A stretch of 64,000 nucleotides of DNA, taken from contig BOKP01000001.1 in the NCBI GenBank assembly GCA_016861045.1, positions 499,529 through 563,528 of the forward strand, given 5' to 3'. How positions within the stretch are numbered: position 1 is the stretch's first letter; the number at the start of each line of letters is the position of its first letter. The stretch comes from Actinomycetes bacterium. Its GTDB lineage: Bacteria > Actinomycetota > Thermoleophilia > Solirubrobacterales > 70-9. Positions 23,786 through 26,524 of this stretch are shown in pieces. The position numbers and the translations under genes were made by a program. Under the pieces are notes generated by a model. It saw nothing but the letters and a program-made list of their open reading frames with translations, did not search any database and was not told where the DNA came from.

Positions 23786-24787
23786 TCACTCGTCGCCGCG
23801 GGCCGGCGGCAGCAGGTCGTTGGTGAGCAGCTCGGCGGCGGCCGGCCGCGAGTCGATCTGCCCGGCCTCGTACAGGTAGTCGGCGAAGCGCTGCCAGCGT
23901 CCCGTGTCCATCCAGCCGTAGGGCCGATCGCCCGGCGGCAGCAGGCGCGGCAGCGTCTTGTCGATCTCGGCTCCGGTCAGCCCCGGGTCGAGCCCGTTGC
24001 CGGCGGCGAGGACCGCGTCGGTGGTCGCCTGCGGGTTCCGCGCGGCAGCGTAGGTGCCGCGCTCGAGCGCCGCCAGGAAGGCGCGGATCGGCTCCGGGTC
24101 GGACTCGACCCGCTCCCGATCGGCGACGAGGACGAGCTCGTCGTAGGTCGGGATCCCGAGCCGATCGACGGGGACGACCCGCGGGTCGAGGCCGCGCTCG
24201 GCGAGGTCGACCCCCTCGACGTTGAGAAAGCCTCCGAACATCGCATCCGCGCGTCCCGAGATCACCGGTGGCATCAGGTTGAAGCCGACGTCGACGAGGT
24301 CGACCGACTCGGGGTCGACGCCCGCCCGCCGGAGGATCGTCTCCAGGTAGGCGGCCTGGTAGGGGATGCCGGCGGTTACCACGGTCTTGCCGGCGAGATC
24401 AGCGGCCGTCTCGATCCCCGCTTCCGGGAGCGAGATCAGCGAGGTCAGCGGGCCGTTCACGAGCGCGGCGACGGCGACGACGTCGAGTCCCTGGTCGCGG
24501 GCGAGGATCACCTCGGGCTCGTAGGAGATCGCGAGGTCGGTGCGGCCGGCGGCGACCTGCTTGATCGGCGCCGCGGGGTCGGAGGGGACCTGTGGGTTGA
24601 CATCGAGGCCCACCTCGTCGAAGTAGCCGCGCTCGAGCGCCGTGAAGACGCCGGCGTGGTCGGGATTGACGTAGAAGTCGAGGGTCAGGCTGAACGGTTC
24701 GCCGTCGTCAGCTTCTCCGCCGCCGCAGGCGGCGAGCGCGATCGCCGTCGCCAGCGTCGCGAGCGCGATCGCCGTCGTCCTTTTCAC
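23786..24787 (-). CDS. thiY: ABC transporter substrate-binding lipoprotein (ThiY/NMT1-like), thiamine-precursor uptake
   Basis: A 333-residue lipoprotein: signal peptide with a lipobox near AACGGG (Cys about residue 21), then a periplasmic-binding-protein type 2 fold of the NMT1/THI5-like group. Signatures are DFYVNPDHAGVFTALERGYF, a DLAISYEPEVI segment and a KTVVTAGIPYQAAYLE stretch. ThiY-type proteins bind pyrimidine precursors of thiamine. The TPP riboswitch at the head of this operon supports that substrate class over riboflavin or nitrate/taurine. The GTG start overlaps the permease stop by 4 nt. It is the third gene of the operon. Confidence 0.88.
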   Translation of the reverse strand: MKRTTAIALATLATAIALAACGGGEADDGEPFSLTLDFYVNPDHAGVFTALERGYFDEVGLDVNPQVPSDPAAPIKQVAAGRTDLAISYEPEVILARDQGLDVVAVAALVNGPLTSLISLPEAGIETAADLAGKTVVTAGIPYQAAYLETILRRAGVDPESVDLVDVGFNLMPPVISGRADAMFGGFLNVEGVDLAERGLDPRVVPVDRLGIPTYDELVLVADRERVESDPEPIRAFLAALERGTYAAARNPQATTDAVLAAGNGLDPGLTGAEIDKTLPRLLPPGDRPYGWMDTGRWQRFADYLYEAGQIDSRPAAAELLTNDLLPPARGDE

Positions 24788-25590
24788 CGGGCTCCCCCTC
24801 GCTCGTCGGCTTCCGCCACCTCGCCCCACCAGGCGATCCGGCGCTCGATCAGGCTCAGGCAGGCGAACAGCGCGATCGCGATCGCCGACAGCCAGACGAT
24901 CGCGGCGAACAGGCGCGCGACCTCGAGCTGCGCGTTGTCGACGAGCATCAGGTGCCCGAGGCCCTCCTTGGCGCCGGCCCACTCGCCGAAGACGGCGCCG
25001 ATCACGGCCACCGCGGCGGCGATCTTGGCGCCGCTGAGGGCGAACGGCAACGCCGTCGGCGCCTCGACCATCGCCAGCAGCCGCCAGCGGCCGGCGCCCA
25101 GCGAGCGCAGCAGCCGCCGCTGCTCGGCGGGGACGGTTCCGAGGCCGTCGAGCGTGTTGACGGCGATCGGGAAGAAGCAGATCAGCGCGATGATCGCGAC
25201 CTTCGGGCCGATCCCGAACCCGAACCAGACGACGAGCACCGGCGCGATCACGATCACCGGGATCGTCTGCGAGGCGATCACGAGCGGATAGGAGACGCGG
25301 CGCACGAGCGGCGACAGATGCAGCGCCACCGCGGTAGCGACGCCGAGCGCGAGCGCGGCGCCGAACCCGAGCAGGACCTCGCCCAGCGTCACTCGGGCGT
25401 TGTCGACGAGCAGGTCTCGGTCGGTCCACAGGGACTCTCCGATCTCGGCCGGCGAGGGGACGAGGAAGGGCTCGAGGCCGAGGCCGTCGGCGAGCGCCCC
25501 GCTGGAGGCCGCGAGCTGCCAGGCCCCGAGCAGGGCGACGAGGACGAGCGCCGCCGGCCAGAGCCGAGCGATCGCCGCGCGGGGCTTCAC
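24784..25590 (-). CDS. thiX: ABC transporter permease (ThiX-like)
   Basis: A 268-residue binding-protein-dependent permease with six predicted helices. It carries the EAA-type loop EAPTALPFALSGAKIAAAVA that contacts the ATPase. A GTG start at 25590 overlaps the ATPase stop by 4 nt, and its own stop overlaps the binding protein start by 4 nt, so the three genes are translationally coupled. With the riboswitch upstream, it is predicted to form the membrane channel of a thiamine-pyrimidine importer. On its own the sequence would fit any NitT/TauT-type system. Confidence 0.88.
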   Translation of the reverse strand: MKPRAAIARLWPAALVLVALLGAWQLAASSGALADGLGLEPFLVPSPAEIGESLWTDRDLLVDNARVTLGEVLLGFGAALALGVATAVALHLSPLVRRVSYPLVIASQTIPVIVIAPVLVVWFGFGIGPKVAIIALICFFPIAVNTLDGLGTVPAEQRRLLRSLGAGRWRLLAMVEAPTALPFALSGAKIAAAVAVIGAVFGEWAGAKEGLGHLMLVDNAQLEVARLFAAIVWLSAIAIALFACLSLIERRIAWWGEVAEADERGGAR

Positions 25591-26396
25591 GCGGCCTCCA
25601 GGACGCTCATCGCCTCGGTCCTGGCGGCGACGAACGCGGAGGCGCCGATCGCCTCCGCCCGCCCCGCCCCGGCCGCCTTTCGCGGCGCATCGATCAGGGC
25701 CGAGATCCGGGCGGGCCGACTCGTCATCAGCGTCACCCGGTCGGCGACGTAGAGCGCCTCCTCGACGTCGTGGGTGACCAGCACGGTCGTCCGCCTCTCC
25801 GCGGCCAGCGTCCGCACGAGCCAGTCCTGAAGCCCGCCGCGGGTGATCGCGTCGAGCGCCGCGAAGGGCTCGTCGAGGAGCAGCACGGGGGTCCCTGCGA
25901 GCAGCGTCCGCGCGAACGCGACGCGCTGCCGCATCCCCCCCGAGAGCTCGCGGGGGAGGGCGGCGGAGAAGTCGCCGAGGCCGATGTGGTCGAGAAGCTC
26001 GCTCGCGCGGCGCCTGCTGTCGGCGCGGTTTCCGCCCGCCGCCCGCAGCGCCAGCGCCGCGTTGTCGGCGGCGTTCGCCCACGGCAGCAGCAGGTCACGC
26101 TGCGGCATCCACGTCGAGGTCGCGGTCCGCGCCTGCACGGCGGTCGCGCCGCCGATCGCGATCGAGCCGGACTGCAGCGGCCGCAGGCCGCCGATCAGCT
26201 CCAGCAGCGTCGACTTGCCGCAGCCCGACGGCCCGACGAGCGCGACCGTCTCGCCCTCCGCCACCTCGAGGTCGATCCCGTCCAGCACCGCGGTCGGGCC
26301 GTAGCGATGCTTGGCTCCGGCGACGCTGATCGCCGCCGGCGGCGGTCCCGGTTCCTCTTCGGCGGCCGCGGCCGCGGCTGGGTGCCTCTCGGCGAT
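25587..26396 (-). CDS. thiZ: ABC transporter ATP-binding protein (ThiZ-like), start codon unusual
   Basis: The ATPase of the importer. Motifs are Walker A GPSGCGKST, Q-loop MPQRD, signature LSGGM, Walker B VLLLDEP and switch His VTHD. The first canonical start in frame is GTG at 26288, but conserved coding sequence continues upstream (AISVAGAKHRYGPTAV), including the A-loop Tyr that stacks on ATP. Between that GTG and the riboswitch there is no ATG, GTG or TTG in any of the three forward frames. I mark the CDS from the in-frame ATC at 26396, 9 nt after the AGGGA that closes the riboswitch. ATC at 26402 is also in frame. A sequencing error or use of GTG 26288 are the alternatives. Expression should fall when TPP is bound. 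Confidence 0.85.
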   Translation of the reverse strand: MAERHPAAAAAAEEEPGPPPAAISVAGAKHRYGPTAVLDGIDLEVAEGETVALVGPSGCGKSTLLELIGGLRPLQSGSIAIGGATAVQARTATSTWMPQRDLLLPWANAADNAALALRAAGGNRADSRRRASELLDHIGLGDFSAALPRELSGGMRQRVAFARTLLAGTPVLLLDEPFAALDAITRGGLQDWLVRTLAAERRTTVLVTHDVEEALYVADRVTLMTSRPARISALIDAPRKAAGAGRAEAIGASAFVAARTEAMSVLEAA

Positions 26397-26402
26397 GACG
26401 AT

Positions 26403-26508
26403 CTTTCCCTTCGCGCGAATTACCGCACAGGTTCGGAGGGTCAGCGCCGGGCGGGGAGGTCCCGGAGACGCTATCTCAGCCCGCTGCCCGCGAGCACCCC
26501 TTGACGCC
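26403..26508 (-). promoter_or_regulatory. TPP (thiamine pyrophosphate) riboswitch
   Basis: Reading the minus strand from 26508, the THI-box conserved segments occur in order: GGGGTGCTC, GGCTGAGAT, then ACCCTCCGAACCTGTGCGG and GGTAATTCGCGCGAAGGGA. The spacing fits the P1-P5 fold with a variable P3a region in the middle. The 3' AGGGA both closes the aptamer and can serve as Shine-Dalgarno for the ATPase gene, so control is probably at translation initiation. This places the following ABC operon in the thiamine regulon. Confidence 0.95.
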
Positions 26509-26524
26509 TCCGATCATAGCCTGG

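Follow-up and report, generated by a model that had tools for sequence, protein, structure and literature searches.

We analyzed a stretch of 64,000 nucleotides (nt; hereafter the window) from an Actinomycetes bacterium of the order Solirubrobacterales (assembly GCA_016861045.1, contig BOKP01000001.1, forward-strand positions 499,529 to 563,528), in which a thiamine pyrophosphate (TPP) riboswitch on the minus strand precedes a gene encoding an ATP-binding cassette (ABC) ATPase. Judged by its sequence, this ATPase is the ThiZ-like part of a predicted ThiZ-ThiX-ThiY importer for a thiamine precursor. The gene has no ATG, GTG or TTG codon in its conserved start region, and the same holds for two other species of the genus, suggesting that ThiZ is probably initiated at an AUC codon under TPP control. 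The start would most likely be ATC 26396, directly 3' of the P1 helix of the aptamer (codons are named here by the window position of their first base; features are collected in Table 1).

The ThiZ start region in three species

An earlier note on this DNA had claimed that no ATG, GTG or TTG lies between the riboswitch and GTG 26288, and this was confirmed: from the end of GAAGGGA (26412-26406), a Shine-Dalgarno (SD)-like motif within the aptamer, to 26288, none is present in any of the three forward frames. The two in-frame ATC codons it had named, 26396 and 26402, do lie 9 and 3 nt after the AGGGA. The reading frame of the ATPase is open from 26513 to 25587. The same note held that conserved ATPase coding sequence continues upstream of GTG 26288, and two lines of evidence agree with this from codon 22 onward (counted from ATC 26396). 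In each of the three species, the translated frame aligns to a profile of relatives starting near codon 22 (26330), with the strand and the A-loop region covered, and codons 22-36 have a G+C content of 0.64, 0.62 and 0.90 at their first, second and third positions. Because of the profile match and the raised G+C at position 3, we take coding to extend upstream of GTG 26288 to about 26330.

The comparison covers the window and two other species of the genus (loci L004 and L005), which are represented by the public metagenome-assembled genomes (MAGs) Conexibacter sp. QR_Bin.2 and Solirubrobacterales bacterium HKST-UBA61; ThiZ protein identity is 68% for each. The three genomes are separate assemblies and together form one supported clade on the protein tree. 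A DNA-pattern scan of GTDB contigs retrieved no further members of the genus, just the two congeners and two unrelated matches. The earlier note had proposed looking for an ATG at the same place in sister genomes; both congeners lack a canonical start there and retain ATC 26396, and more distant genera mostly have ATG, GTG or TTG. In the window and both congeners, the stretch between the SD and codon -18 before Walker A holds none of these codons in any frame, and L004 has none in frame from its upstream stop all the way to Walker A.

ATC 26396 is common to the three species, inside the block CATCGCCGAGAGGCA and in frame 8 or 9 nt after GAAGGGA. Its distance to Walker A is a constant 162 nt with no indel, and its spacing from the SD varies by 1 nt. 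ATC 26402 is in frame in the window and L004 and one base out of frame in L005, and the position of GTG 26288 reads GTC in L004 and GTG in L005. Therefore neither of these two codons can be the common start, and ATC 26396 can. We also prefer 26396 to 26402 because the latter sits within the 3' arm of P1, which 26396 directly follows. The congeners thus support the proposal of a rare ATC start within riboswitch control and would place it at 26396.

To gauge how unusual this is, we asked whether the other ABC ATPase loci of the three genomes have a canonical start in frame and 30 or more codons ahead of Walker A; 26 of 26 did, and the three ThiZ genes did not. An order-level survey yielded 147 readable homologous loci, 97 with a detected aptamer and 50 without. 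All 50 loci without a detected aptamer had a canonical start. Among the 97 aptamer-led loci, the open frame contained one in 92; the other five were the loci of the window and its two congeners and the doubtful MAG sequences L129 and L137. A canonical codon lay no more than 16 nt from the AGGGA in 85 of the 97, with one more found later within the 40 nt examined; several of these codons were GTG, and two genomes had TTG only. Because both congeners also lack a canonical start and the two sets of controls uniformly have one, its absence here is beyond chance.

The TPP aptamer and its predicted control of the start

The aptamer (RF00059) retains all of its core motifs (CUGAGA, ACCCU-GAACCUG, the UAAU loop and GAAGGGA) together with P1-P5, and the sequence between the P1 arms is near-identical across the three species. 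The P1 arms themselves are GGUGUC/GAUCGUC in L004 and CUGUC/GAUCAG in L005, such that pairing is retained with changes on both sides. In its motifs, its downstream thiamine-transport gene and its 3'-end GAAGGGA, the element resembles other TPP (THI-box) riboswitches of this family with the SD in the aptamer. GAAGGGA also stands a few nt before the start codon in most relatives from the order, whose start is mostly ATG, GTG or TTG, whereas AUC takes that place here. The loop L5 differs as well: most relatives carry an ATG in it, since the loop reads UAAUG there, and in the window this has become ATT.

We hypothesize that when TPP is scarce GAAGGGA would be free and the ribosome could bind, with the initiator tRNA reading AUC poorly and giving low yet usable ThiZ synthesis. 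With TPP bound, P4 and P1 would form, the SD would be hidden, the start region clamped and synthesis would stop. TPP should have this effect on the ribosome-binding site and the start because AGG of the SD pairs with CCU of P4, ATC 26402 is in P1 and ATC 26396 adjoins it. The next two genes, overlapping by GTGA, are probably coupled in translation, and a weak AUC start would thus determine how much of the whole transporter is made.

If true, this would be a start of the AUU/AUC class under ligand control, the first case as far as the literature searched shows; our literature search for a riboswitch joined to such a start codon found no report. An AUC at the end of a riboswitch throughout a genus would also offer a simple way to ask why weak starts persist, whether for less leak, for control by IF3, or for neither.

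Weighing alternative starts

Several observations weigh against an AUC start at 26396. The first 22 codons from this ATC encode an Ala/Pro-rich tail, and the N-terminal 24 codons show no clear constraint at the protein level. Over codons 0-36 the rate of nonsynonymous change (dN) is about equal to that of synonymous change (dS), and in codons 1-21 G+C is flat across the codon positions. Because these N-terminal codons lack clear protein constraint, the precise start position is argued from spacing, frame and conservation of the nucleotides, and an ATC beside P1 could itself be kept for RNA reasons. The tail does resemble the variable tails of relatives with an obvious ATG. With cmscan the aptamer reaches 40.1 bits, short of the 54.3 of the Rfam gathering score, with E = 1.4e-6 for the local stretch and 2.3e-6 across the whole genome; many aptamers of the same bacterial family likewise fall below this cut-off. 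Lastly, the contig that carries L005 (genome G002) has only 3x coverage; its sequence is supported despite this because P1 pairing is kept though both arms change.

The strongest competitor, which we still consider unlikely, is a start at ATC 26402, close to the ATG position of many relatives. Its spacing from AGGGA is like that of relatives such as GGGAGCATG, and it suits the frame of the window and L004. The shift of frame in L005 argues against it, and the P1 arms that still pair in that locus argue against a base-call error there. Less probable by a wide step is a start at or close to GTG 26288, by which the ATPase would be shortened and the upstream part left as untranslated leader. That GTG is the first canonical start in frame, L005 shares it, and dN about equal to dS upstream would suit a leader. 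However, L004 has GTC and no in-frame substitute, the profile and the codon-position G+C indicate coding from codon 22, and no indel has occurred over the 108 nt upstream in the three species. The product would moreover be without the first strand and the A-loop, and no SD is seen in front of the codon.

Slightly less credible again is another non-canonical codon in the stretch from the SD to codon 22, such as GTC 26399 or the ATC at codon 22 (26330). GTC starts are known in Streptomyces (sigR; PMC5472188) and the codon-22 ATC is conserved in three species, but GTC 26399 is GCC in L005, and the ATC at codon 22 lacks a consistent SD and codes for a conserved strand residue. We regard an artefact or a decaying gene, with the ATG lost by assembly error or the gene a pseudogene, as very improbable. 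The sequences derive from MAGs, one of them at the low coverage given above, and the genus sits on a long stem branch. Against this, the frame and the ABC domain are intact in all three species, dN/dS is about 0.3-0.5 over the whole gene in the three species pairs, and the aptamer is all but unchanged between its P1 arms. Sequencing error as such was rejected because three separate assemblies agree.

Further possibilities were examined and set aside. Fusion to sequence upstream of the riboswitch is blocked by in-frame stops 60 nt (L004) and 62 nt (L005) upstream of the SD. A start at the L5 ATT (26420) would fit the frame of the window and of L005 and be out of frame in L004, and it has no SD. 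Free-energy folds suggested a conserved alternative helix that joins the 3' strand of P3 to the start region, but this helix was not better than shuffled sequence, with 26%, 10% and 10% of shuffles as strong in the three species. NTG codons are scarce upstream of 26288, and we do not claim this as a sign of selection, because the tail is rich in Ala and Pro and TG dinucleotides are simply missing from it.

Comparable starts elsewhere and the surrounding operon

Other natural starts fall outside ATG, GTG and TTG. The infC gene starts with ATT in E. coli and with ATC in Streptomyces, and sigR of Streptomyces has a GTC start that is repressed by IF3 (PMC5472188). ThiZ as read here would share the AUU/AUC class of start with infC, which controls itself through IF3; unlike that of infC, its AUC would belong to a transporter gene and follow a TPP aptamer. 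Like the ThiZ gene, sigR is actinobacterial and has a conserved start outside ATG, GTG and TTG that gene callers misplace, and weak initiation is part of its regulation. However, sigR uses GTC instead of ATC and has no riboswitch, and its start was proven by mutation and the role of IF3 by genetics, whereas the AUC start of ThiZ is predicted and an effect of IF3 on it conjectural. The infC genes of the present genus (L113, L114 and L115) have a conserved in-frame GTG as their likely start with no visible SD, unlike the ATC of Streptomyces, and ordinary ATG codons follow the second TPP riboswitch of these genomes. The ATC is therefore specific to ThiZ as far as tested.

In six further genomes, a near-cognate codon takes the place where relatives have ATG or GTG: CTG in G170, ATA or CTG in G062, ATC in G088, and ACG in G150, G149 and G137. 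When loci with no canonical start near the SD are treated as one class on the protein tree, about 10 changes are required, and supported branches force at least 7 of them; this count includes the doubtful loci L106, L129 and L137, among 12 loci in the tree scored as having no such start. These three were not counted as near-cognate starts: L106 has an ATG right behind the SD that is out of the ATPase frame, L129 has an out-of-frame ATG and a probable frameshift in the MAG, and L137 is a doubtful sequence.

An in-frame ATG in L5 (UAAUG) is kept in five of the six near-cognate genomes and could serve as the start instead. At L104, L171, L185, L188 and L204 this loop gives an ATG in the ThiZ frame where the usual start is now ATA, ATC or ACG, and in these loci translation may start at the L5 ATG, within the aptamer itself. 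In G170 no L5 ATG is in frame, and a GTG lies about a dozen codons downstream. The present genus has neither an L5 ATG (the loop is UAAUU) nor a GTG of that kind and is the cleanest case. A tentative idea, to which we give rather low weight, is that within the order the ThiZ start behind the TPP riboswitch has repeatedly left AUG, GUG or UUG for AUC, CUG, AUA or ACG. Two inputs would then gate expression, the absence of TPP and a start selection that IF3 permits, and in some species the ligand-buried L5 ATG may have taken over. Because the survey points to candidate near-cognate starts of ThiZ in further genera, the question of weak starts can also be approached comparatively.

At L161 (G170), behind a TPP aptamer, CTG occupies the exact position of the GTG start found in all sister species of its clade. 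In sister genera (L062, L065, L066, L069, L080 and others), a conserved GAGGCTCCC...GGAGCCTC hairpin lies in the first codons past the ThiZ ATG, and its GCTCCC is complementary to the SD sequence GGGAGC. This hairpin, which the present genus has lost, is likely an anti-SD expression platform lying within the coding sequence.

The three genes of the operon have the ThiXYZ layout, with the ABC ATPase, a permease and an NMT1/THI5-like binding protein behind one TPP aptamer. With NCBIfam, the importer matched only other ABC-importer models (taurine, nitrate, sulfonate etc.), every match being below its cut-off. The gene set and the predicted TPP control are like those of the ThiXYZ-type importer of the pyrimidine hydroxymethylpyrimidine (HMP), which is a putative substrate here, and the start codon is the sole notable difference.

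Table 1. Positions of the riboswitch, candidate start codons and importer genes in the window
Feature	Position	Strand	Remarks
ThiZ-like ABC ATPase coding sequence	25587..26396	-	269 amino acids counted from ATC 26396; Pfam ABC_tran 7.9e-30
ThiX-like permease	24784..25590	-	GTG start overlaps ATPase stop (GTGA); Pfam BPD_transp_1 1.1e-27
ThiY-like substrate-binding protein (NMT1/THI5)	23786..24787	-	GTG start overlaps permease stop (GTGA); Pfam NMT1 2.6e-62
GTG, first canonical start in ATPase frame	26286..26288	-	rejected as main start: GTC in L004, coding upstream, no SD seen
ATC, likeliest ThiZ start codon	26394..26396	-	9 nt past AGGGA, in frame; 54 codons before Walker A; conserved in three species
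P1 3' arm GAUCGUC	26397..26403	-	holds the first ATC (26402)
TPP riboswitch aptamer (RF00059), P1 to P1	26397..26508	-	cmscan; Rfam match spans 26388-26511
ATC, second-choice start codon	26400..26402	-	3 nt past AGGGA, in frame; inside P1 arm; out of frame in L005
GAAGGGA, SD-like, inside aptamer	26406..26412	-	AGG paired with CCU of P4 strand in model
UAAUU at aptamer loop L5	26418..26422	-	UAAUG in most relatives
P1 5' arm GGCGUC	26503..26508	-	pairs with 26403-26397 GAUCGUC, one bulged U; read by eye
TATGAT, possible -10 box	26513..26518	-	just upstream of aptamer, within GGCTATGATC

A search for a full sigma-70 promoter match upstream of the aptamer found none. The sequence GGCTATGATC (window 26511-26520) is kept directly upstream of the aptamer in the three species, and because its TATGAT resembles a -10 box, the transcript may begin at the 5' end of the aptamer, a few bases past the stop of the upstream gene.
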